DNA from: Cladopsammia gracilis
Lineage: Eukaryota; Cnidaria; Anthozoa; Scleractinia; Dendrophylliidae
DNA: 64,000 bases
Reading direction: 5' to 3'
Assembly: GCA_022457155.1 (NCBI GenBank)
Contig: JAJGOT010000259.1
Span: 684,501 to 748,500 of the forward strand
Made by a program: the position numbers and the translations under genes. The notes under the pieces are model-generated. The model was not told where the DNA came from, ran no database searches, and saw only the letters and a list, made by a program, of their open reading frames with translations. This document shows positions 52,564 to 64,000 of the stretch, one piece after another; the stretch's first letter is position 1; every line of letters starts with the position of its first letter.

Positions 52564-52926
52564 TTGAGTTTTTCCAGAAAAGAAAGAAGTAAGTCCATTT
52601 AGGGTAGTAGTTATGTAAGGCACTATACGGCACTTTACATCACCCATAAAAGTATCGAATTTTGTCCGTTAGATTTCCTCGTTAAATTTTTCAAGATTTT
52701 TTCAAAAAATCCTCGTTAAATTTCCAAAATTGTCGTTAATTTAGTGTATTTTGGAAATTTTCCTCGGTAAAAACCCAGTGGGTAACCATCTTACCCGTAC
52801 ATCAGCATTTCTGAGAAAATTCTGGCTCACTTTCCAAAAAAACACACATCCTCATGAGCCCACTTTCCAAAAAACACACATCCCTCATGAGGCACTTTCC
52901 AGATCTAGTGTTTTAATCGATACTCA
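52564..52926. other. Left terminal region of the endogenous viral element
   Basis: Lies between the host gene stop and the polymerase stop. It contains small direct repeats (CTCGTTAAATTT x2; CACTTTCCAAAAAACACACATCC...TCATGAG x2). The element's left inverted terminus should be here, but it cannot be fixed without the right end, which is outside the window. Confidence 0.5.
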
Positions 52927-55900
52927 TTAATATCCGTATGGAAACGTCTCGATACCAGATTCGGTCTTCACCATACACCGTTTATCGTAACACATCCGAA
53001 AGTCTTTTTTCTGGTATTTATTTACAACCTGTTTTGTTAAAGGATCCCGAGTTATCGCTCGTTCGTTTACGGTTGTTATCTGTTCCTTTTGACCTTCGAT
53101 GATCTGCTTCATCGTTTTTTGATTTATTTTTTGACTATTTTTGTGATTCAGAGTGAAACCTTTGACCTTACATTCCATCTTCCCATCACTTGTACTGTAA
53201 CTGTATGATTTTGGACCAGAACCGCACCAATTCGTAATATAATGTCCGTTTAACTCATCGGTTAGATCACCGAGGCTGTCACCTGTTTCGATACGCTGTC
53301 CCCCTTCACGTTCGATATACCAACAGCTGTCGGTGTCAAAACCGAGAACCTGATCACCGAGTTTATCCAACACTTCATACAGCATCATTCTAGCGTGGCT
53401 GGTTGTGAAGGCAGCAATAAATATGTTTGTGTTATTACTATTGTCAACGAACTGGTCTTTCAAGTTGTAAGTCATTTCAACCATCTCTTCGTTTAAGAAT
53501 TGAATGTTCAGATCGTCTATGCTTTCATCTAACAAGATCTTGTAAAATTCTTTTGGTTCAGTGACGTACACAGTCTGATTCATGTTATTACGCTGACCAA
53601 ACTTTCCCCATAAGCTACACAGAGAGATCTTACTTATCGCCCTCCTTCCAGGATTGAACTCAATCTCACCAAGCTCGATTCCTAACTTTGATTTAACAAT
53701 AGCCTTGTACTCATCAACACTCTTATATGTACAACCTTCCCCAACCTTCAGCTCACTACTCTCCATCTTGATCTTCATGAATTTTCTTACATAACTCTTG
53801 AAAAGGTCATCTGATCTTTTAGGGAAATGCCACACCTCGTATATCTTTAGTACCTTGTACCCTTTACAAATCGCCACATTCAATTCATTTGTGCACCATG
53901 TTCCTATGAATGATCGTTCATCATCTGTATGTGTACATTCCTGAATCTTATTTTCAGCGCACACTCTACAGAGCGGAAATAGCAGCTTTTCAGCCTTATC
54001 GCATTTTATTTTTACCGGTAACACAGGATGATAAAGACCTCTTGGAGGTAAAACTTTACATTTCACAAAACCAAACCAATTCTCATCGTACTCTTGAGGA
54101 GGATCGAATATCTTTGTAGGATGACCTATCGGATAATGCTTGAAGAACTGTACCGTTGAATATAAACTAACAAAGTCAACATATCTACCTTTCTCACCTT
54201 TTTTGAATGTGTAGGTCGGTTTTGTTATATTTGTTCGTCCACCAAAAAATGCGTCCCTAGGGTTAAGAGGCCCTACAAATTCCCGATTCCACGTTTTTAG
54301 AAACTTATTAAACTCTTTCTCCTTTTTCAGTTCACATTCGTAAACCTCAACCAGTTCATACCCGGCAGCTCTAATCTTATCGTTTTTCGCTACCGTCCTC
54401 TTTCTTAGAGTTAACATATCCATCTGATTTTTTGTGTTGATTGTGTCGCATGTATAACACTTCTCACAACCGTGCCAAAAACATCCTTGAAATTCGTAGA
54501 CCGTATTCCCACAGAAACCATCAACCTTTCCGATATCTGGTAAAGTCTCTTCACCACCGTTCAGAGCGTGTTTTATTTTAATACCATCTCTCTGAGAAAT
54601 CCAATCTAACCATGCGATGCTACTTTTACTGTAGTTCTCTCCACGTGTAATTTCCTTTACAACAGCGATCTTTTTACGACGCATGTGGTTACTTCTGTAC
54701 ATGGTCATGCATACAGAAGCGATGGTTATATATTGAAGAGGGTCGATGTTACCTAACTCGATATACTGTTCTCGAAAAATCAACATACCTCTTCTGAGGA
54801 TGTCTACATCACTATCACAGTAATCTCTCAGCTCCTTCTTCATGTCAAACACATAGTTTTCATCAATACGTTGTTGATACCATTTTAAAAATTCCTTTCT
54901 CGCTGAAGGTTTCATGTCATCATAACCATAGTGTTTCTTATCAGGAATAGGCCCTACATAGTTTTGGTTACACTTTGTGTTGAAATAATGTGGAAAATAC
55001 CCTTTTTTCAACTCTTTCAAACCAAATGTCTTAGGGAACGATGATAACCCCGCAGCGATAAAGTTTATAGAATCAATAAATCTAACACCCTCAGCCTTCA
55101 TAGACATAATCTTTGTTCCGTTGTAAATAATATCGGGTTTCACTCTGTTCTCTATACACCAATTTCGAATAAACTGAGCATCGTAACTTTTTGCATTGTG
55201 AGCTATGAAGGTATACCCCACATGCTCATCCTTGTTAAAAATAAATTTACAAAATTCGTCGACCGTTTCAAACGTATATTTATTACCATAAAAATCGTGA
55301 CAGACGACTAAATTGACCTCATGAACACCGGTCTCCTGAGTTGCCTCAAAATCAAAGAACATGTATTTATCGGTTCTTGTCCGACAAGAATAACACAGAT
55401 TTCCATCCTTACATCCGTAACCTTGACATTTTCCACCCCTACATTCCGTTTGAGACATGAAACAAAGATGTTCATTCATATCACAGTACTTCTCACAATT
55501 ACTACACTTTGAATATCCGCAGATGTGCTTTTTTAGGTCAAAATTTTTAGAAGATGTAATTGTACGTTCACATTTCAAACATTTACCTACTTTTTTACAC
55601 ACAGTGTCTTTACTACCCCATGTGGATCGTTCACGTAGATGCTCCATAAAACAATCTACTCCAAAGAAAGACCTATTGCACTTATCGCATGGAATTGGTG
55701 GTTTAGAACATTTTTTCCCATCAGGAAAGTATTTAAAACATGCTGTACATTTTGCGGGGCATCTATGACAATCGCGTTTTGTGTACGGCTTTTTGCAGGT
55801 GTGACAATAATAATCTTTACTCAAGAACGCTGGCATACTTGTGATAACGTCGAAGTGGTTTTTGTTTTTGTAAAGGTATATCATCTGTCCATCGTGCTCA

Positions 55901-57069
55901 TTTTCAGTAGTGAAAATCAGATCATTGAACTGATCACCGTCTACAATGTTTATCTGAATCTTAAGATGTTCCGCGAATCTCTTTACATCTTCCAGATCTG
56001 AACCGGTTTCCTCGTTAATTTCGACTCCAGCTTCTTTATGAAGTTTGATAGCTTCGTCTTTCTGCAGTTTTCTCGACCTATTGAACCCATCCTGTAGCTG
56101 AGTTTTTGTCCATCTACATTTATTTATGTTTGCGAGAGCCGTCACTATCGATCGTGCAAGACAGGTTGAGTCATTATTTTTGATTGTGATTATACTCTTT
56201 TTGGTGCTAGCATTTAATTTTGTTATACGTAATCGACCCTTACCCCGGGGAACCTTTATCGACTGAATCTCTATTTTGACCTCGGGGAGCGGTACATCCT
56301 TGTATTCAATGAATTTAGCTATCTCTTCGACGAGATCCGTCCCAAGGTGATCTGTGATCGTGATTCGTTTTGTACTGACCGGTTTATACCAACTCGGATG
56401 ACTAAGTATCCATCGAATCTTGTCACCGTTTTGTAACCCTCTCTCTTTTATTACTCTGAGCCCTATTTCTAGCAGTAATTGATCAATATCGAATACACCT
56501 GAAAGGTGAGGGTTTAGTATTTTTACATTGAATTCATCGAAAAACGATTTGAACTTTCTACTTTCCTTTGAAGATATCTTGATTATCTCATAAGGATGTT
56601 CCAACAAGGTTGTTCCTTTCAAGATGTCAAGCTCGTTGTTGAGCAATTCTCTTTTTGAAAACAACTGTTTTCTCTGCTTTTTGTTATTTTTCAACTTTTT
56701 ATTAACCTTTTGGAGTTTTTTCTTGAGCCGCTTGATCTGTTTCTCTTTTCTTTTATTATCCGCCAATTCAACATGTGAGGGTGCTTCAAAGTTTTTCTCT
56801 TCTCTTTTCTGCCTGCGGGTTTGTTTGGGTTTTATCTGATAAGGTTTTGGTTCTGCTTTTCGTGGAGGTGGTGTTTGTTCTCTTTCCCTAGGTGGTGATT
56901 CTTCTTCATCTATAAAAGTTACGATACCGCGTGGTGGGGGAGGTGGTGGAGTATTTATACTACTTTCAATGAATTTAATCAGCTCCGCTTTCCTCCTATA
57001 ACGTGAATAACCTTTCAAACCGTTTTCACGTGCAATTGCCTTAAGCTGTTCAACAGTTTTTGAATCCAT
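52927..57069 (-). CDS. Protein-primed DNA polymerase B with OTU-like and nuclease-like insertions
   Basis: 1,380 aa. In order: a SAP/LEM-like N-terminus (residues 1-40); a Pro-rich and coiled-coil linker (40-150); an OTU-like cysteine-protease candidate with STCLARS (Cys303) and KNHFDVI (His405); a Cys-rich zinc region (420-565); 3'-5' exonuclease motifs FDFEA (573-576), FIAHNAKSYDAQFI (621-634) and DYCDSDVDILRRG (749); a GCFWHGCEKC segment (862-871) inside a Vsr/MutH-like nuclease-type insertion; palm motif A DFVSLYS (965-971, Ser where Pro is usual); motif B around CSLWGKFG (1151-1158); and motif C DTDS (1245-1248). It would replicate the element from its terminal inverted repeats. The frame is intact. 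It lies 84 bp downstream of the integrase. Confidence 0.95.
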   Translation of the reverse strand: MDSKTVEQLKAIARENGLKGYSRYRRKAELIKFIESSINTPPPPPPRGIVTFIDEEESPPREREQTPPPRKAEPKPYQIKPKQTRRQKREEKNFEAPSHVELADNKRKEKQIKRLKKKLQKVNKKLKNNKKQRKQLFSKRELLNNELDILKGTTLLEHPYEIIKISSKESRKFKSFFDEFNVKILNPHLSGVFDIDQLLLEIGLRVIKERGLQNGDKIRWILSHPSWYKPVSTKRITITDHLGTDLVEEIAKFIEYKDVPLPEVKIEIQSIKVPRGKGRLRITKLNASTKKSIITIKNNDSTCLARSIVTALANINKCRWTKTQLQDGFNRSRKLQKDEAIKLHKEAGVEINEETGSDLEDVKRFAEHLKIQINIVDGDQFNDLIFTTENEHDGQMIYLYKNKNHFDVITSMPAFLSKDYYCHTCKKPYTKRDCHRCPAKCTACFKYFPDGKKCSKPPIPCDKCNRSFFGVDCFMEHLRERSTWGSKDTVCKKVGKCLKCERTITSSKNFDLKKHICGYSKCSNCEKYCDMNEHLCFMSQTECRGGKCQGYGCKDGNLCYSCRTRTDKYMFFDFEATQETGVHEVNLVVCHDFYGNKYTFETVDEFCKFIFNKDEHVGYTFIAHNAKSYDAQFIRNWCIENRVKPDIIYNGTKIMSMKAEGVRFIDSINFIAAGLSSFPKTFGLKELKKGYFPHYFNTKCNQNYVGPIPDKKHYGYDDMKPSARKEFLKWYQQRIDENYVFDMKKELRDYCDSDVDILRRGMLIFREQYIELGNIDPLQYITIASVCMTMYRSNHMRRKKIAVVKEITRGENYSKSSIAWLDWISQRDGIKIKHALNGGEETLPDIGKVDGFCGNTVYEFQGCFWHGCEKCYTCDTINTKNQMDMLTLRKRTVAKNDKIRAAGYELVEVYECELKKEKEFNKFLKTWNREFVGPLNPRDAFFGGRTNITKPTYTFKKGEKGRYVDFVSLYSTVQFFKHYPIGHPTKIFDPPQEYDENWFGFVKCKVLPPRGLYHPVLPVKIKCDKAEKLLFPLCRVCAENKIQECTHTDDERSFIGTWCTNELNVAICKGYKVLKIYEVWHFPKRSDDLFKSYVRKFMKIKMESSELKVGEGCTYKSVDEYKAIVKSKLGIELGEIEFNPGRRAISKISLCSLWGKFGQRNNMNQTVYVTEPKEFYKILLDESIDDLNIQFLNEEMVEMTYNLKDQFVDNSNNTNIFIAAFTTSHARMMLYEVLDKLGDQVLGFDTDSCWYIEREGGQRIETGDSLGDLTDELNGHYITNWCGSGPKSYSYSTSDGKMECKVKGFTLNHKNSQKINQKTMKQIIEGQKEQITTVNERAITRDPLTKQVVNKYQKKDFRMCYDKRCMVKTESGIETFPYGY

Positions 57070-57153
57070 ACGTGTATTATTATCAATATATTTTATTTTT
57101 TAATACCATTTTAAATTTTCATTTCACGTTCATGAAATGAAAAGAAGAGATCT

Positions 57154-58161
57154 TCACCGCAGATCTTTCAGTTCTTTCAAATCTACCCAAGAGTTGAATT
57201 TATCGCTATACCCGCTCCACTTCACTAACGCTTTACCTTTTCGAGCATCTCGTCGAATCACTTTCTCAATTCGAAAGATGGTCTGTTTAGCCTTCTGCAG
57301 CTCTTCCTTATAAAAAGAACCTGTTATCTCCTCACCCAGCTCATCTTTCAGTTTATAAGTTATAGGGTTAGTGTATCGAATCTTATCGATAGTAAAAATC
57401 TCTTCAGTCCAATTCGGTGTGTAACCTTTATCGAAAACAGGGCGTTTGTATTTCGATATTCGAACCTTATCACCAACTTTAAATTTCGGTTTAGTATTCA
57501 TCCGTTTCATCTTACCGTACAGATTTAAGTAAACAGCACTTTCGTTCTTTTTCTTCGACGCTTCCACAGGTGTCATACCGATGCTTCGGTGTTTTGAATT
57601 ATTGTATTCTTTCAATATCCTCGGTAATATATCATAATACACAGTATTGTTTTGAACGGTAAACTGTTTATACATTTTCTCTTTTATCGTACGGTTCCAT
57701 CTTTCACAAACACTAGATTTTTCTTCATTCTCTGTCGAATACATCACTATCTTATTTTTATCCAACAGTTCTTTCATATTCTTGTTGTAATACTCTTTTC
57801 CCTTATCCACCCACAGCATTTTCGGTTTTCTTCCTTTCTTGAATAACGATTTGAACGCTTCCCTAACGGTCTCTCCCTTTTTATTCTTCAACGGTACAAT
57901 CCAACCGTATTTACTGAAAACATCTAACACCATGAGAAGATATCGATATCCCTTATTCCACTTACTTAATTTCTGCATCTCGACAAGGTCAGAACACCAT
58001 ATCTCATCGATTCCGTTTACAATAACACGCCGCCGAGTAAACTTTCGCCTTATAGGTTTATGCAGCTCATCTGCAAGCTTTTCTTGCCACGTCTCTACGT
58101 TTTTACTCGGCGGCCTTATCCGTTTCCCAACCCAAGTTTTTGTTTTACGTCGATAGTATTT
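57154..58161 (-). CDS. DDE integrase with chromodomain, no ATG upstream of the catalytic core
   Basis: The frame is open from a TAG at 58162-58164 to the stop at 57154. The first ATG (57978) lies after the first catalytic Asp (WCSDLV), so it cannot start a functional enzyme. The catalytic triad is WCSDLV, LWVDKGKEYY and SSVCERWNRTIKEK; a chromodomain follows (FRIEKVIRRD ... LVKWSGYSDKFNSWVDL). The upstream segment in this frame, ELHKPIRRKFTRRRV, is the conserved pre-core region of Maverick-type integrases, so coding clearly begins before 57978. The frame is -1 relative to the PLA2 gene, whose last codons contain the slippery heptamer G GGA AAC (58122-58128). Expression as a -1 frameshift fusion is the simplest reading of the sequence. 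Confidence 0.88.
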   Translation of the reverse strand, partial: KYYRRKTKTWVGKRIRPPSKNVETWQEKLADELHKPIRRKFTRRRVIVNGIDEIWCSDLVEMQKLSKWNKGYRYLLMVLDVFSKYGWIVPLKNKKGETVREAFKSLFKKGRKPKMLWVDKGKEYYNKNMKELLDKNKIVMYSTENEEKSSVCERWNRTIKEKMYKQFTVQNNTVYYDILPRILKEYNNSKHRSIGMTPVEASKKKNESAVYLNLYGKMKRMNTKPKFKVGDKVRISKYKRPVFDKGYTPNWTEEIFTIDKIRYTNPITYKLKDELGEEITGSFYKEELQKAKQTIFRIEKVIRRDARKGKALVKWSGYSDKFNSWVDLKELKDLR

Positions 58162-58733
58162 CTAGCTAACCAGTGACCCCATTGTCGATCGTTATAGGGC
58201 ACGCTATCCAAAGCTTTCACCATTTTTCTATCCGCATCGTTTTTACATTTACGCGGTTCCGGTTTATTTGCGCACACAGAATAATCGACGTCATGCTGCA
58301 TCGCTATAGCATCCGTTTCACCCGTCGGCTGTTCGTAGATCTCCAGTATTTTTCCTGTTTCCGGATCATACGTCAGTTGTGTATCCAAGTCATTGTATGG
58401 TCCTGTGTATTTATGTCCGGGTAATGTCCAACCGCCTTTCGGTTTCGGTAATTTACCGATCATTTTATGAATATCGACACCGCTACCGTGGTGAAGCGGA
58501 TCGAGTCTTTTCGATAAGTCTCCTGTGAAACTGTCCAAAGCCTGATCTATATACTTATCAGCGGCTGATCTAATCTTTTTCTTTACAAAGTCTGATTTGA
58601 TGGCTTTTGACGCACCTATTTTTCCTAAATTGTAAAGACCTTTCATACCGGCTTTCATAGCTATCTCTCCAAGACTATGACTACCTTCCACATCAAAAAA
58701 GCCCCCACCTTGTGGGGGCCCAACTAGTTTTCC
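58116..58733 (-). CDS. Parvovirus-type phospholipase A2 domain protein
   Basis: The frame is open from just after a TAA (about 58743) to the TAA at 58116. It contains the Ca-binding-loop-like KYTGPYNDLD and the catalytic AMQHDVDYSVC (His-Asp), the pattern of viral sPLA2 domains that breach endosomal membranes during entry. The N-terminal half is basic and helical. The first ATG in this frame is internal (IAMKAGMKG); a GTG at 58691 is the only earlier alternative start. Upstream residues in frame include GGGFFD, resembling GSGFFD in the pVI-like protein at 61506-61907, which argues that coding extends to the frameshift site at 58727-58733. Adintovirus genomes are known to carry membrane-active accessory proteins, including PLA2 types. 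Confidence 0.82.
   Translation of the reverse strand, partial: GKLVGPPQGGGFFDVEGSHSLGEIAMKAGMKGLYNLGKIGASKAIKSDFVKKKIRSAADKYIDQALDSFTGDLSKRLDPLHHGSGVDIHKMIGKLPKPKGGWTLPGHKYTGPYNDLDTQLTYDPETGKILEIYEQPTGETDAIAMQHDVDYSVCANKPEPRKCKNDADRKMVKALDSVPYNDRQWGHWLARNTIDVKQKLGLGNG
58122..58128 (-). promoter_or_regulatory. Candidate -1 ribosomal frameshift site G GGA AAC (PLA2 to integrase)
   Basis: In the PLA2 frame the codons read TTG GGA AAC GGA TAA, which gives an exact X XXY YYZ heptamer two codons before the stop. Slipping back one base enters the integrase frame, which has no ATG of its own. GGGAAAC is a functional heptamer in several retroviruses. I see no strong hairpin directly downstream. Confidence 0.65.
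58701..58719 (-). promoter_or_regulatory. Perfect 8-bp GC hairpin downstream of a possible slip site
   Basis: GCCCCCAC and GTGGGGGC flank a three-base loop, followed on the minus strand by six T. It starts 7 bases after GGAAAAC (58727-58733), the spacing of frameshift-stimulating stems. It also looks like an intrinsic terminator, but that mechanism is not expected in an animal virus. Confidence 0.6.
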
Positions 58734-58882
58734 GAACTCTTAACGAAACGGGTTTTCTTGATTCCGCAATTAGCGCAAGTGCACCAAAAATAAGGTCTAC
58801 CGTTTTTAGCTGTCATATAACCGGATGGTTCGGTACAACCGGTTTTTATTTTTTCCTTAACACAATACGTTAACGACTCCAT
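58724..58882 (-). CDS. Small zinc-ribbon protein, 52 aa
   Basis: A short intact ORF too small for most callers. It has the pattern of the viral DUF5679-like ribbon: TYCVKEKIKTGC near the start, then MTAKNGRPYF, CTCANC and IKKTRF. Four cysteines could bind zinc. It ends GAA AAC TAG just before the hairpin, and the downstream PLA2 frame is -1 to it. The role is unknown; similar small ribbons accompany capsid genes in adintovirus-like elements. Confidence 0.75.
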   Translation of the reverse strand: MESLTYCVKEKIKTGCTEPSGYMTAKNGRPYFWCTCANCGIKKTRFVKSSEN

Positions 58883-58922
58883 TTTATTATACGATCTGTA
58901 TAATAAAACTTTTTAATTTTAA

Positions 58923-59381
58923 TTACATGAAATATTTTTTAATAAACTTTTCATTATAGTTTTGATTATCGATTTTGAATCTACTTAAGCAATCATAAAA
59001 TGATTTTTTGTAAATATTATCAAGAAAATATAAACAATAATAACCGCATCTTACTGATTTTATAGCTTGAAACGGGTAACCGATATTATATTGATATTCC
59101 ATACCTGATTTATTAGCATAATCAATGAAATCTTGTGGTGGTGGTAAACAAAACGAATCAAAATAATATATGAGATCTTTATTTTTTACAAATGTTGCTA
59201 CCCAGTGTGTACCGTTCCCTATCTTATCATCAAGATTAATTATACAACATCCTGTTTTATGTATATGATTTACCGTTTGATCTCTCGAAAAAATACCTTT
59301 GAAATCGGGTATTTTTAAGTAATTTATCCATTCAAGGAGGTCAAAATTACTTAGCGGTACATCCCTAAATTTGGGTTTTTT
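58923..59381 (-). CDS. Adenain-like cysteine protease, ATG-less, -1 frame
   Basis: 150 codons are open from the slip site to TAA at 58923-58925, with no ATG before residue 92 of that span. The adenain catalytic pattern is visible: GTHWVA (His), YYFDSF (Asp) and KSVRCGYYCLYF (Cys). This is the maturation protease of adenovirus/Maverick virions. The frame begins after a TGA (59382-59384) and is -1 relative to the 261-aa gene, which contains A AAA AAC at 59375-59381 eight codons before its own TAA. The protein is therefore probably made as a C-terminal extension of that gene. The length is shorter than a typical adenain (about 200 aa), consistent with the N-terminal part being supplied by the upstream protein. 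Confidence 0.85.
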   Translation of the reverse strand, partial: KKPKFRDVPLSNFDLLEWINYLKIPDFKGIFSRDQTVNHIHKTGCCIINLDDKIGNGTHWVATFVKNKDLIYYFDSFCLPPPQDFIDYANKSGMEYQYNIGYPFQAIKSVRCGYYCLYFLDNIYKKSFYDCLSRFKIDNQNYNEKFIKKYFM

Positions 59382-60136
59382 TCACCCCATGATCCGTAAA
59401 AAGGTGGAGGATAGTATGGAAACTTTGGAGAAATCTGTAATCCTCTACCTTCTCTTTTCGGTACCTGTAATCCTCTGCCTTCTCTTGGACTTACAGATAA
59501 CCCTTTTCCAAAAAGTTTTGAAGCTAATTCGATAGCCATAGGAATTCCGATTGCAGCAAGTGTTCCTAAAAATCCTCCATTTATCTGTCTTTGCGTAGGT
59601 TTGAACGTTATTCCGCTACCGCTTTGCATACCTTTTCTCACCGCTTGCGCTTGCCCTTGTGTTAATTCTTTTATGCGAAGCAGTTGAGGAAGAAAATCAA
59701 ACGGTACCGTGATTCCGTTACCAAAAATCTTATCGATACCGAGACTTCCCAAAGCGCCTAACGCTCCTGTAGCTAAATGAGGTAGTACTTTTGTAGCTGC
59801 TTTTGTAGCTAAAGGTACTACCTTTGTTGCCGCTTTTGTAGCAAAAGGTAACAACTTTGCACCGAGTGACAACAAAGAGGTCCATAAACTTCCCCCTACG
59901 GTGATCGCTTTACGAATCTGTGTTTTAGATATTTTGATATCGGTACCGGTACCGTTTTTTAGCGCTTTATTAATCTTATTAATCTGGGTTTTTGTCAACA
60001 TCAACTCATGCGACCCTTTCAAATTATTCTTACTCAACCTTATCGTAATTTCTGAATTATCGTCATATGCTTTTTTAAGTTTATGTAGCTGTCCTTGAGA
60101 CAAATTTACTCCATATGCATTGTAATATGTAGCCAT
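59351..60136 (-). CDS. Virion-associated protein, 261 aa, conserved type in cnidarian adintovirus-like elements
   Basis: Starts MATYYNAYGVNLS. The N-terminal third has two repeats of a TKTQINKI / SKTQIRKA type separated by NGTGTDIKI. The middle is a hydrophobic Ala/Leu/Gly helix region (LATGALGALGSLGIDKIFG) and a GGFLGTLAAIGIP segment. The C-terminus has GKGL/GRGLQ repeats and ends in a Pro/Tyr-rich tail. The composition suggests a membrane-interacting or core protein of the particle. The function is unassigned. Its 3' end overlaps the protease frame. Confidence 0.78.
   Translation of the reverse strand: MATYYNAYGVNLSQGQLHKLKKAYDDNSEITIRLSKNNLKGSHELMLTKTQINKINKALKNGTGTDIKISKTQIRKAITVGGSLWTSLLSLGAKLLPFATKAATKVVPLATKAATKVLPHLATGALGALGSLGIDKIFGNGITVPFDFLPQLLRIKELTQGQAQAVRKGMQSGSGITFKPTQRQINGGFLGTLAAIGIPMAIELASKLFGKGLSVSPREGRGLQVPKREGRGLQISPKFPYYPPPFYGSWGEKNPNLGMYR
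59375..59381 (-). promoter_or_regulatory. Candidate -1 ribosomal frameshift site A AAA AAC (261-aa protein to protease)
   Basis: The zero frame reads GAA AAA AAC CCA; the heptamer sits exactly in phase. After a -1 slip the next codons are CCC AAA TTT, the protease frame. The site is an A7 tract, so a one-base indel is the main alternative. A small CCC/GGG stem-loop follows immediately but is weak. Confidence 0.68.
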
Positions 60137-60169
60137 TTTTAATTTTACAAAATATAATTTTAATTAGAT

Positions 60170-61468
60170 TTACGCTTTTATTAATATTTTTCCGGATGAC
60201 GTGTATAACTCTATCTCTTTTTCATGTAAGACTAAAGCATTTAATCTATAATTTGTTGGATTTGCTCCGTTTAATTCATAATTAAAAGTAAGTGCAACTA
60301 CACCATCTTTTACATCTTCTTCTTGGTTTCTAAGATTAAAGTATAGAATTCCAAAAAGATTTCTGAAATTTGATCGGTCAATTATTGTTCCGCTTAAAAA
60401 GTCGTTGTAAGCGGAACTGTAGGATAACAAAGCTCTGTAAAGTCTTGACTCCTCATCTGATGTCATTTCTAATTGAGGATATTGGATGCTGTTATTTATT
60501 TGCAAGTGTGCTCTAGAAAAATATCGATTGTTTGCACCGATTCCAAATGTTTTGAAAGTAAATATATTTTGCTCCTGATTACTATAACTTGCCTCGGGAA
60601 CAACCCAGATGAAAACATGCCTCGGTCTCCTAATACCTGTACTTATTCGAAAGGAGCTATTTACAGAGGATGTTTGTAATATTTCGGTGTGTTCTCTCAA
60701 ATAGGTCCATTTTTTGGGTTTCAGATAATCTTCAAGATACTGTTTCATACCTAAACCGTTGAAAATAATTTTTGGACACCACAATCTTAATTTTGTTAAG
60801 ATCACTTTACTATCTGGAGCAGCTCCTTTTCTGAAAATTATATTGTTGTCGCTTTCAAGTTCTATAAGAAGATTTGTCTTGATATTTGGGTGAAGATTAT
60901 TTTTGAAAGCTGCAAAATAGCTGTATAGATTTAGCGGAATCGATATTTTGTTAACAGCTGCAGCATCTGTTAAGATTTTTCTTCTAGCAAAACCTTCGTT
61001 ATATAGCGCTTGAGCCGGTCGTGCTTCTGTTGTTCCTGTGGATGAATCTAAATATAAAAACTGATCTTTACCGATCGTGTCGGCATAACTTTTTGTATAT
61101 TTTAAGAGGGAAAGTACGTTTGATGTTTCATTAGCTCTTGAGTTATTATAAACTGTCATCCCGTTGCATTCAACCTGTATCTGTCTTATAAATGTATGAC
61201 CATTAGTTGTGGTACAATCTTGATTACCGTTATTTGGTCCTGCTGTTATACCGGTTGTACTATCAGCAAGCGTAACAAGTTTGAAATCTACTTCCAGATA
61301 AGCGTTATACCAATCGATCGGATTTGCTTCTGAAGAGTTATCAACTGTGAATCGATAATTATTCTTAACCTGTCTATTATTATTTGCGACATTATCGATT
61401 AGCGGTGTTTCCAAATCGTAGCACACGTATTCATATCGTTTGACTAGTTCCGGATTTCTGAAACTCAT
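60170..61468 (-). CDS. Major capsid protein candidate (double jelly-roll)
   Basis: 432 aa, starting MSFRNPELVKRYEYVCYDL. Length, beta-rich composition, position beside the pVI-like, penton-like and protease genes, and segments such as FIRQIQVECNGMTVY and LRLWCPKIIFNGLGMKQYL fit the hexon-like double-jelly-roll capsid protein of adintoviruses. A structure prediction would confirm it. The frame is intact. Confidence 0.8.
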   Translation of the reverse strand: MSFRNPELVKRYEYVCYDLETPLIDNVANNNRQVKNNYRFTVDNSSEANPIDWYNAYLEVDFKLVTLADSTTGITAGPNNGNQDCTTTNGHTFIRQIQVECNGMTVYNNSRANETSNVLSLLKYTKSYADTIGKDQFLYLDSSTGTTEARPAQALYNEGFARRKILTDAAAVNKISIPLNLYSYFAAFKNNLHPNIKTNLLIELESDNNIIFRKGAAPDSKVILTKLRLWCPKIIFNGLGMKQYLEDYLKPKKWTYLREHTEILQTSSVNSSFRISTGIRRPRHVFIWVVPEASYSNQEQNIFTFKTFGIGANNRYFSRAHLQINNSIQYPQLEMTSDEESRLYRALLSYSSAYNDFLSGTIIDRSNFRNLFGILYFNLRNQEEDVKDGVVALTFNYELNGANPTNYRLNALVLHEKEIELYTSSGKILIKA

Positions 61469-61505
61469 TCTTATTATGAATTATAATAAGAAATTATTTT
61501 TAAAA

Positions 61506-61907
61506 TTAAATCAGATCATTTACGATATTTCTGATATATTGAAATTTGTCTTCTTTCTTCTCTTTCTTAGCGTTTTCTTCGTTTAAAAATTTGATAATAT
61601 CGACTCCTTTTGTTTCACCTGAGATTTGTGGTGTTGGTGATGGTGATGGTGGTGCAGCAGAAGGTTCTTTTTTACCTTTCGATGAAAACTTGTCATAAAT
61701 TTTTTCACCAAGAACTTCACCGGTTTTTTCACCAACCTTTTCAGCGCCTTTTTCAATAAGTTTTTCTGCTGCTTTACTAGCTAATTTACTCGCTGTTTTT
61801 CCTGTTATGGTTTTTCCAATTTTTGAAAATATATCGAAGAAACCGGAACCATCAATATAAGAATTTTCTCCCGTATCAAAATCTCTTACTCTTCTTTGTT
61901 CTTCCAT
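61506..61907 (-). CDS. pVI-like capsid cement/membrane-lytic candidate
   Basis: 133 aa. After a short acidic head comes GSGFFDIFSKIGK, an amphipathic segment like the lytic helix of adenovirus pVI and related proteins, then an Ala/Lys/Glu-rich helix (KLASKAAEKLIEKGAEK). A low-complexity Pro/Ser linker and a C-terminal charged helix (EENAKKEKKEDKF) follow. A GSGFF site could be cut by the element's protease. The role is inferred from composition and gene position. Confidence 0.65.
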   Translation of the reverse strand: MEEQRRVRDFDTGENSYIDGSGFFDIFSKIGKTITGKTASKLASKAAEKLIEKGAEKVGEKTGEVLGEKIYDKFSSKGKKEPSAAPPSPSPTPQISGETKGVDIIKFLNEENAKKEKKEDKFQYIRNIVNDLI

Positions 61908-61943
61908 GTGTAAGTCTAAGTTTTATAAATTCTAAATAAATTT

Positions 61944-62705
61944 CTATACTTCTTTTAACACTACAGTTATGGAGATATCGATATCGTTCAGATCAACAAT
62001 TCTATCTTCATCGTCGGCCAAGTAAAAGGTTACTTCGGATATGTCTTTTCTATTCATCTTATGCCATAAATAATTTACTCTCGGGTAGATTTCAAAAGGT
62101 AAAGACCTTGTTTTTGTATTTGTTGAGAATGTGAATAGCGTATTGCTTCGCTTTCCTGAAACGATCGAATCGCTCAACAAACTACATTTTAGGTAAAGAT
62201 TATCGATGCTGTTACTGATATTAGGGAAATTTTCCCCATAACCGCTGCTCGTTAAAACTTTCGATTCGAATCCGAGTAAAATATTAAAATTTCCACTCGA
62301 ACTGAAATCGATGCGGAAATTTTCATTTAATTGAATAAATACCTTGTAAGTTGTAAGATCAAACAATACGCTAATTCCATATTCCTCCGTGTTGGGTATT
62401 TTTCCAATCGTTTTGTGGATAAAATCATTTATATCTTCGTAATCATAAACCCCTGACGGAAAAGTAATCGTTTCATATGTTTGACCTTTATCCTTCGATA
62501 TTCTTAGTTTATCGTTATCATATTCAGGACGAATGTTATGCCAACTCGCAGTCATGCTAAGATGATCCAATGCTAAAAAACATTCTTTATTATCGTCCAA
62601 TCTCAACTCAGGAGTAAACCTTACAGTAAAATTTCCCGGTTTATTATTGGGATTTTGTTTTCTTGCATCTATAGATTTGAAAACTAGCGTTCTGTTAACA
62701 TCCAT
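61944..62705 (-). CDS. Penton-like minor capsid protein candidate
   Basis: 253 aa, beta-rich, starting MDVNRTLVFKSIDARKQN. Segments include FLALDHLSMTASWHNI and FEIYPRVNYLWHKM. Size, gene order next to the pVI-like and major capsid genes, and single-jelly-roll-like composition fit the penton of Maverick/adintovirus particles. The frame is intact. Confidence 0.68.
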   Translation of the reverse strand: MDVNRTLVFKSIDARKQNPNNKPGNFTVRFTPELRLDDNKECFLALDHLSMTASWHNIRPEYDNDKLRISKDKGQTYETITFPSGVYDYEDINDFIHKTIGKIPNTEEYGISVLFDLTTYKVFIQLNENFRIDFSSSGNFNILLGFESKVLTSSGYGENFPNISNSIDNLYLKCSLLSDSIVSGKRSNTLFTFSTNTKTRSLPFEIYPRVNYLWHKMNRKDISEVTFYLADDEDRIVDLNDIDISITVVLKEV

Positions 62706-62736
62706 TTTTATTATACGAAAACCTTTTTAATTTTAA

Positions 62737-63187
62737 TTACGCTAAATATTTTTTATATAATTTCTCATGAGCTGTCTTATCTATTGCTCCTATTCTTAAC
62801 AGCTCATCGTTAATTTGCGATAAATCATTTCTCAAAACAGGAGAGTTATTACCGGCAGCCATCGAACCGATTATTATCTTCATTCTGTCTGCCAATTTGT
62901 TAGGATCATCATAATAAACTATACTTGAACCGATCATTTTCGATTTACCAGATGATTTATGAGGAGGTAAATTACTCAACATATTTAGATCATTAAAAAC
63001 TTTTACAGCGTTCATACTATATCTTGTTTTAGGATTGTATCTTTTCGTCAGTAAATTAATCAGAGATTTATCAACATCGGCTTGATAGACTATTTTTCCA
63101 CCACGATAGACGTTCAATTTCAGTTCTTTCATTAATTTAGGCATGTCGATTAAGAGACCACCATATTGATTATTTTTTTGAATCTTA
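62737..63187 (-). pseudogene. 3' part of a virion gene, cut off by a MITE
   Basis: About 150 codons downstream of the MITE in the same frame as 63311-64000. Helical, with MPKLMKELKLN and LRIGAIDKTAHEKLYKKYL. The ATG-initiated frame that begins at 63279 is a chimera: its first 30 or so residues are encoded by the MITE. Without the insertion, this and the upstream part form one gene. The function is not assigned. Confidence 0.75.
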
Positions 63188-63306
63188 GGCCTACGGCAAA
63201 CGTCGAACTTCACATGTGCCGAATCTAATGCAAATGAGCAAAATCTATTGTTCTTGCTCATTTGAATTAGATTCGGCACATGTTAAGTTCGACGTTTGCC
63301 CTAGGC
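63188..63306. mobile_element. Palindromic MITE inside a viral gene
   Basis: Arms of about 54 bp (GGCAAACGTCGAACTTCACA against TGTTAAGTTCGACGTTTGCC) with an 11-base loop. CTTA flanks both ends (63184-63187 and 63307-63310), a likely 4-bp target duplication. Element plus one duplication is 123 nt, so the frame is kept, but the first codons inserted include a TAG. Confidence 0.88.
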
Positions 63307-64000
63307 CTTATAAGCGTTTCGTCTTGGTTGTTTGTACTTGCGTACCCCTTCACCTTGTTTTTGTTTTGTATATTGCGGTAAAATTTTTACATTCTTAATC
63401 GTTGTTAAATATCTGTCTAATATATCTCTTGTTCTTTCATATATTTTCAGATCATAATCGAGTTGTTGTTTTTCTTCTTCTGTCTTTGGTTTTCTTCTTT
63501 TCAAACCACCTATCTTTATTCCGACACTTCTGTTTTCATCTTTAGCTTCATTATAAGTTGCAACAAGTTGGTCTTCATTCATTTTAAGTAGCTCATTAGG
63601 TTCATGAAAAGTTTCTTTTAAAAATTCTAATTCGTTTTCTGTGAACATCTTATTTGGTTCAGCAGTTATTATTTTACCCTTCGGTGGTGCAGGTATCGGT
63701 AGCGTATCCGTTGGTGGTTGGTCACCGCCAGGAAATGGTAGCTCTTTATTCAATGTTAAAATATCCTTATTGGTTTCAACCAGATCTTTGAAACCGCTGG
63801 TCAAAGCCAATTGATTTTCTTTTAATTGCTGAATTACTTTGTCCTGTTTTTCATCTGTTTTTTTCTGCTGTTCAATTAGCGGTTCTCTCAGAGTTTTAAA
63901 ATAATCACTCATCGCAACATCGCGAACTTGTTCTTTATTTTTAACCTCATTCTTTACTTCGGTAACTGCTTTAGCAATTTTAAAACCTTCAAATTCTAAA
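63301..64000 (-). pseudogene. 5' part of a coiled-coil virion gene, partial at right edge
   Basis: An ATG is at 63912, but the frame is open on through 64000, so the start may lie outside the window. The N-terminal half is a coiled coil (QQKKTDEKQDKVIQQL), then a Pro-rich linker and a basic C-terminus (YKQPRRN). The reading ends at a TAG supplied by the MITE. It is the upstream piece of the gene whose remainder is 62737-63187. Confidence 0.75.

Follow-up and report, generated by a model that had tools for sequence, protein, structure and literature searches.

Candidate serial -1 frameshift sites joining the DUF5679, PLA2 and integrase frames of a Polinton-like element in Cladopsammia gracilis

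How is the integrase translated in an element whose integrase frame has no ATG ahead of its first catalytic residue? The element is of the Polinton/Maverick type (adintovirus-like) and occupies the last 11 kb, on the minus strand, of a 64,000-nucleotide (nt) stretch of Cladopsammia gracilis DNA (GenBank assembly GCA_022457155.1, contig JAJGOT010000259.1, positions 684,501 to 748,500), which as a whole is called the window here; the element extends beyond the window edge. A Pfam search of its open reading frames (ORFs) identified polB (DNA_pol_B_2), an integrase (INT) with rve and Chromo domains, and an ORF with a PLA2 domain. The pairing of polB with an rve integrase that carries a chromodomain, both present here, is expected of Polintons/Mavericks and adintoviruses, and no reverse transcriptase was found by Pfam among the nine ORFs of the part of the element inside the window. 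As an earlier sequence-only reading had stated, the INT frame is open from 58161 and its first ATG is codon 62 (57978), which follows D58; D58, D119 and E153 are taken as the catalytic residues as read from the rve family. That reading proposed a -1 shift from the PLA2 frame into the INT frame. The shift itself is supported by the present analysis and is placed second in a series: two serial -1 programmed frameshifts very probably extend one polyprotein, first by PLA2 and then by integrase. The features of the two junctions are as follows.

58724..58882, minus strand: DUF5679 (PF18930) ORF of 52 amino acids, with an ATG start and a TAG stop right after slip site 1
58727..58733, minus strand: slip site 1, which reads G GAA AAC in the window and the canonical G GGA AAC in many of the other copies
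58701..58719, minus strand: hairpin GCCCCCAC-AAG-GTGGGGGC, 7 nt past slip site 1, from fold and covariation
58116..58739, minus strand: PLA2 frame (PF08398), shifted by -1 from the DUF5679 ORF, its front without ATG
58122..58128, minus strand: slip site 2, a G GGA AAC heptamer in the phase of the PLA2 frame
58115..58121, minus strand: 7-nt spacer containing the final PLA2 sense codon and the stop
58102..58114, minus strand: 5' arm of the 13-base-pair (bp) stem, from fold, stem scan and covariation
58029..58041, minus strand: 3' arm of the 13-bp stem, from the same three analyses
57154..58161, minus strand: INT frame with rve and Chromo domains (Pfam, ORF), opening after a TAG and with its stop at 57154

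The PLA2-integrase junction

In the window, the PLA2 frame ends TTG GGA AAC GGA TAA, and INT is the -1 frame of PLA2. The in-phase heptamer that the sequence-only reading had pointed out lies at 58128-58122 and is the sole in-phase canonical heptamer of the PLA2 frame; the translated part of INT would begin at this slip site. Judged from heptamer frequency, an in-phase heptamer would fall in the PLA2/INT overlap by chance in about 7% of cases, so that the heptamer alone is weak evidence. A perfect 13-bp stem starts 7 nt past it, and the 97-nt fold reaches -30 kcal/mol (z -4.3), with none of 200 shuffles as good. The window has 806 canonical heptamers when its two strands are counted together; three of them are followed at 4-10 nt by a perfect 13-bp stem, and two of these three share one AT-rich inverted repeat. 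Slip site 2 thus combines a zero-frame X XXY YYZ heptamer with a downstream RNA structure inside the 5-9 nt spacer range.

Copies of the element were compared within the 877.8-Mb genome assembly. A first look gave 5,166 candidate INT places; 120 of these were scored, and INT was free of stops in 111 of them. These figures point to a heavy and seemingly young Polinton load in this one genome. Ninety loci including the window were then assembled from the best 30 of the scored list, 20 of other length classes from that list, 20 from the P0004 search and 20 from the P0087 search. The slip site 2 heptamer was canonical and in phase in 90/90 loci (54 with G GGA AAC, 36 with A AAA AAC), followed in every one by a spacer of 7 nt and a G[GC]CG stem arm. 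The site was read in 86 of 87 anchored loci, the anchor of L048 being misplaced, with L048, L055, L063 and L065 read separately, and another single pattern recovered it in 89 of the 90 (L036 missed). In 85/89 loci the PLA2 frame ran without a stop for 50 codons or more before reaching the slip (exceptions L045, L051, L073 and L088).

The stem was aligned from 45 of 75 distinct segments, the omitted 30 being the window's own subfamily and the four separately read loci standing outside the segment set. Over the 45 rows, 94.2% of cells pair, compared with 33-49% when the partner arm is slid. Among the loci, any insertion or deletion between the arms has a length divisible by three. Both partners have changed in nine cells, which fall at two pairs: a C-G pair becomes U-A in three rows (L054, L059, L066), and an A-U pair becomes G-C in six. 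The covariation score is 0.152 against a shuffle mean of 0.136, and none of 500 shuffles reaches it. Fold z values were -4.25 for L060, -5.18 for L054, -2.51 for L073, -1.98 for L080 and -6.19 for L074, and near 0 for L085, L086 and L089. With G-U pairs allowed, the stem has at least 12 bp in 64 of 74 anchored loci and is shorter in 10, the pattern used for this count leaving 16 of the 90 unanchored. The heptamer and spacer in all ninety loci, the stem in most rows and its covariation strongly support the earlier proposal that the junction is recoded. Across codons 47-335 in 50 copies, the INT pN/pS ratio of 0.16 indicates that INT is under purifying selection.

L018, L037-L039, L045-L047, L050 and L057-L059 carry a different variant of the PLA2 front with an unchanged slip module, as though recombination joins at this point.

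The DUF5679-PLA2 junction and the proposed cascade

The sequence-only reading counted two genes of the element without a start ATG. The INT and protease frames are indeed of this kind, and the count is three, as the front of PLA2 also has none: the first ATG of the PLA2 frame is residue 28 after the stop (58658), ahead of the PLA2 domain. Upstream lies the DUF5679 ORF (33.4 bits against a cut-off of 27), relative to which PLA2 is again in the -1 frame. Neither this junction nor the stimulatory stems were part of that reading.

Slip site 1, G GAA AAC, is followed by a hairpin with an 8-bp core at 7 nt, or at 5 nt if two extra end pairs are counted; its 37-nt fold gives -18.1 (z -2.8), a value matched by 1 of 200 shuffles. 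A heptamer followed at a distance of 4-8 nt by a stem of 7 bp or more was present at this junction in 81 of the 90 same-genome loci, with 42 G GAA AAC, 37 G GGA AAC and 2 T TTA AAC. A stop stands immediately 3' of the heptamer in 80/81, and the site is in phase with slip site 2 in 74/81, the other seven having a later indel. The site and stem were not found in 9/90 loci, in two of which (L067, L074) a looser scan found the heptamer. For the hairpin alignment, 59/90 loci passed a fold filter and gave 23 hairpin types, and 20 of these were used; L059, L069 and L054, the last a spurious match, were omitted. The alignment of these 20 distinct rows has 83.8% of its cells paired, with both sides altered in 18 cells that belong to four pairs, and its covariation score is 0.307, compared with 0.120 (sd 0.030) in shuffles, none of 500 of which reaches it.

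The proposed mechanism would run as follows. Translation would follow a single mRNA that begins ahead of the DUF5679 ORF. A fraction of ribosomes would pass into the PLA2 frame at slip site 1, where G GAA AAC or G GGA AAC is followed by an immediate stop and, about 7 nt away, by a GC hairpin; a fraction of these would pass into the INT frame at slip site 2, where G GGA AAC or A AAA AAC is followed by a 7-nt spacer and a 13-bp stem. The products would be DUF5679, DUF5679-PLA2 and, in presumably the smallest amount, DUF5679-PLA2-integrase-chromodomain, perhaps later cut by the element's adenain-like protease. The second shift would limit integrase to a fraction of PLA2 and would attach it to PLA2, which may be carried in particles; a low integrase dose and a place for PLA2 in the virion, both suggested by the sequence-only reading, might follow. 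Two short motifs may bear on the transcript.

58909..58924, minus strand: promoter-like motif AATTAAAATTAAAAAG (putative function), upstream of the DUF5679 ORF
57092..57097, minus strand: AATAAA between the INT stop and the polB start, a possible poly(A) signal

The first motif has a second exact copy at 62738-62723, upstream of the ORF at 62705, and no others on the minus strand of 52900-64000; both copies are possibly a promoter element. It is missing before the PLA2, INT and protease frames, which fits one transcript.

Opposing evidence and alternative explanations

Several observations weigh against two serial frameshifts. The loci all come from one genome and are related, so that the counts above are counts of sequences and not of independent events. 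At the INT stem, the numbers of doubly changed pairs and of pair types are no higher than in shuffles (305 of 500 for each). Two of the 45 rows lack the stem (L086 with 4 and L089 with 3 of 13 pairs), in both of which the 3' arm is that of another integrase variant; 11 of 13 pairs form in four more rows (L057, L076, L084, L085), and L085 does not fold into the stem. The zero synonymous variation around the slip occurs equally at INT codons 107-120, and synonymous-site conservation alone is not decisive. At slip site 1, the 63-nt fold of the window's hairpin has a z of only -1.4 (14/200 shuffles), shuffles do as well in doubly changed pairs (242 of 500) and in pair types (106 of 500), and the hairpin slid by -1 is still 67.5% paired with a score of 0.215, because some rows pair one column over. 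With G GAA AAC, found in the window and others (42/81 loci), re-pairing of the P-site codon is non-canonical; a plant RNA virus site described in the available part of PMC5009743 likewise re-pairs its P-site codon incompletely, differing in its second codon. The motif AATTAAAATTAAAAAG is also missing before other ATG-bearing ORFs, which weakens the argument for a single transcript, and PLA2 could start at its own internal ATG.

Start codons supply further opposing evidence and the strongest of the alternatives, an integrase begun at its own start, be it an ATG (internal in the -1 frame or beyond the slip) or a non-AUG codon, reached by leaky scanning or on a separate mRNA. Near-cognate codons do exist in the INT frame of the window (e.g., CTG 58065 and ACG 58092). 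An upstream -1 ATG is open to the slip in 13/89 loci, and an ATG lies between the slip and RRRV in 6/89, giving 18/89 with an INT-frame ATG before RRRV (L052 has both types). This start from the integrase's own codon is nevertheless improbable: the stretch from the upstream stop to RRRV is free of ATG in 71/89 loci, the window included, the loci that have one still keep the heptamer and spacer, and one-frame PLA2-INT fusions exist. The linker ATG stands after the 5' stem arm and before WQEKL in L052, L056, L061, L062 and L064, and further on in L027. The simple statement that relatives have an upstream ATG was set aside as true of a minority only. Comparison of copies, the check put forward in the sequence-only reading, thus came out in its favor on the heptamer and less so on start codons and on frame, as some copies are in one frame.

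These one-frame versions were found in the same genome and elsewhere. All 11 such copies read in the same genome (L091-L101) have PLA2 and INT in one frame, a point that also belongs to the opposing evidence. Ten were analyzed, L101 being unanchored; nine of the ten keep an in-phase heptamer (L100 does not), and nine form a 9-11 bp stem (L094 does not), in most cases with a different sequence. The supposition that single-frame copies had lost the stem was wrong. A shift at their heptamers leads to a stop within 6-18 codons and, judged from sequence, would release PLA2 alone. Frameshifting of the dnaX type makes a shorter product. Nine of the ten copies (L091-L099) resemble it in having an in-phase heptamer at which a shift reaches a stop in 6-18 codons, a likeness read from sequence alone that may be a relic. 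The module in these copies may be a relic, or it may yield the same pair of products with the other one as the default.

In other sources, a protein search returned 6,815 INT homologues, and the following counts are from the 120 listed. The PLA2 domain is in the same protein as INT in 43, nine of which also have DUF5679; these 43 were read as protein, and the one-frame copies above as DNA in their own genome. Two of the fused homologues, P0003 and P0036, seem to switch frame in the linker. That PLA2 and INT (some with DUF5679) form one ORF elsewhere argues that the fusion is a natural product. The named INT homologues are from corals, names that by themselves point to a probable anthozoan host, and the best-listed virus-named match is a Stylophora coral adintovirus integrase. 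Twenty INT ORFs whose front could reach into PLA2 were tested for frame, and 16 decode as -1 of the PLA2 end (0/200 shuffles each); decoding was uninformative for P0009, P0026 and P0068, and P0072 scores +1 over most of PLA2. Heptamers for other hosts (e.g., T TTA AAT in P0004) were deduced from peptides and are to be taken only as compatible with them. Scans of viral contig and genome contig collections found no relative.

The one-frame versions, here and elsewhere, would also suit a gene once in one frame whose dead copies acquired random indels, and most vertebrate Mavericks are degraded according to the available part of PMC8097293. Such decay is very unlikely to account for the offsets, given that the -1 offset and the spacer length are the same in 90/90 loci, each with a heptamer of one of the two canonical forms, that the stem covaries, that pN/pS is low in INT and that 111/120 scored copies have no stop in it. 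Adenoviruses splice. A small intron joining PLA2 and INT, with splicing resolving the offset, has scarcely any likelihood, since the overlap is less than 50 nt, conserved protein lies on both sides and is contiguous in the single-frame copies, and intact vertebrate Mavericks are reported as intron-free in the accessible text of PMC8097293. Slippage in transcription instead of translation could use the A run of the 36 A AAA AAC loci and is equally hard to credit, as the 54 G GGA AAC loci have no homopolymer there and the fixed distance to the stem is a ribosomal arrangement.

The protease junction, known systems and other features

Frameshifting is also likely at the protease of the element, less well supported than at the other two sites. 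The features concerned are the following.

59351..60136, minus strand: ORF without a Pfam match, which we take to be the minor capsid protein from the gene content of Polintons
59375..59381, minus strand: slip site 3, reading A AAA AAC and lying 10 codons short of where the minor capsid-like ORF ends
58923..59381, minus strand: protease frame, adenovirus endoprotease-like, -1 relative to the minor capsid-like ORF, its front without ATG

The protease frame matches PF00770 at 18.4 bits, under the cut-off of 21.3. The heptamer reported earlier for the protease is real (59381-59375). It was in phase in 30/30 matched loci (29 A AAA AAC, 1 A AAA AAA), the pattern having matched 30 of the 50 loci L001-L050 and left 20 unmatched. 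In the window, no stem was found near 7 nt past it (z -1.05). Some listed protease homologues look one-frame with the upstream protein (e.g., P0247, P0251, P0312). A wider reading is put forward tentatively, as falling somewhat short of probable: a clade-wide cascade from DUF5679 to PLA2 to INT with betaretroviral heptamers and spacing and a third shift at the protease, in which the slip module is retained also where INT shares the frame of PLA2, a shift there releasing PLA2 alone, and selection holds the ratio of the two products and not the frame.

The closest likeness to the two serial frameshifts is found in betaretroviruses. Mouse mammary tumor virus (MMTV), Mason-Pfizer monkey virus (MPMV) and simian retrovirus 1 (SRV-1) make Gag-Pro-Pol by two serial -1 shifts, as described in the available parts of PMC5009743 and PMC3835772. 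The accessible portion of the latter gives GGGAAAC for Jaagsiekte sheep retrovirus (JSRV), MPMV, SRV-1, SRV-2, squirrel monkey retrovirus (SMRV) and the human endogenous retrovirus HERV-K10 and AAAAAAC for MMTV and intracisternal A particles (IAP), each followed by a "7" (8 in mouse IAP), which is taken as the spacer. As far as those portions go, the element shares with Gag-Pro-Pol the two serial -1 shifts proposed for it, the GGGAAAC and AAAAAAC heptamers and the 7-nt spacing, and its most downstream product would likewise carry an rve integrase. Unlike those systems, it also has G GAA AAC at slip site 1, it is a DNA element in which polB is present and no reverse transcriptase was found, and its upstream proteins are DUF5679 and PLA2 and not Gag. 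The predicted stimulators, set against the betaretroviral ones, are stem-loops, long-looped at slip site 2. As a system, the element is not homologous to betaretroviral Gag-Pro-Pol.

With adintoviruses and Polintons (Mavericks), the element shares polB, an rve integrase with a chromodomain and an adenain-like protease. Within the part of PMC11071296 available, -1 frameshifting is suggested by KnotInFrame for adintovirus Penton and Hexon-Adenain; the PLA2-integrase and DUF5679-PLA2 shifts are not named in that part, and the protease shift of the present element would come from the minor capsid-like ORF and not from Hexon. Frameshifting is discussed for another virus in the accessible text of PMC12567637, and relatively few eukaryotic DNA viruses are known to use it according to the available part of PMC8310308. 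No -1 frameshifting for an adintovirus or Polinton integrase was found in the open-licence literature searched, which does not show its absence in print. As far as these searches go, serial frameshifting for PLA2 and integrase in a DNA element is new, frameshifting itself being known. If it does set the amount of integrase, elements that share an integrase with retroviruses would have reached the same translational solution, and the shifts would explain why gene callers truncate or miss the integrase, PLA2 and protease of Polintons. The slip module is a compact, assayable signal with ninety natural variants.

Elsewhere in the element, the ORF at 60170-61468 has no Pfam match. An inverted repeat at 63187-63241 and 63254-63308, with 55-nt arms that are 95% complementary and 12 nt apart, sits where the ORFs 63301-63912 and 62737-63279 meet. 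Past the end of polB, at about 52718-52760, an AT-rich inverted repeat with perfect 13-bp arms, turned up by the stem scan, may lie near the end of the element.

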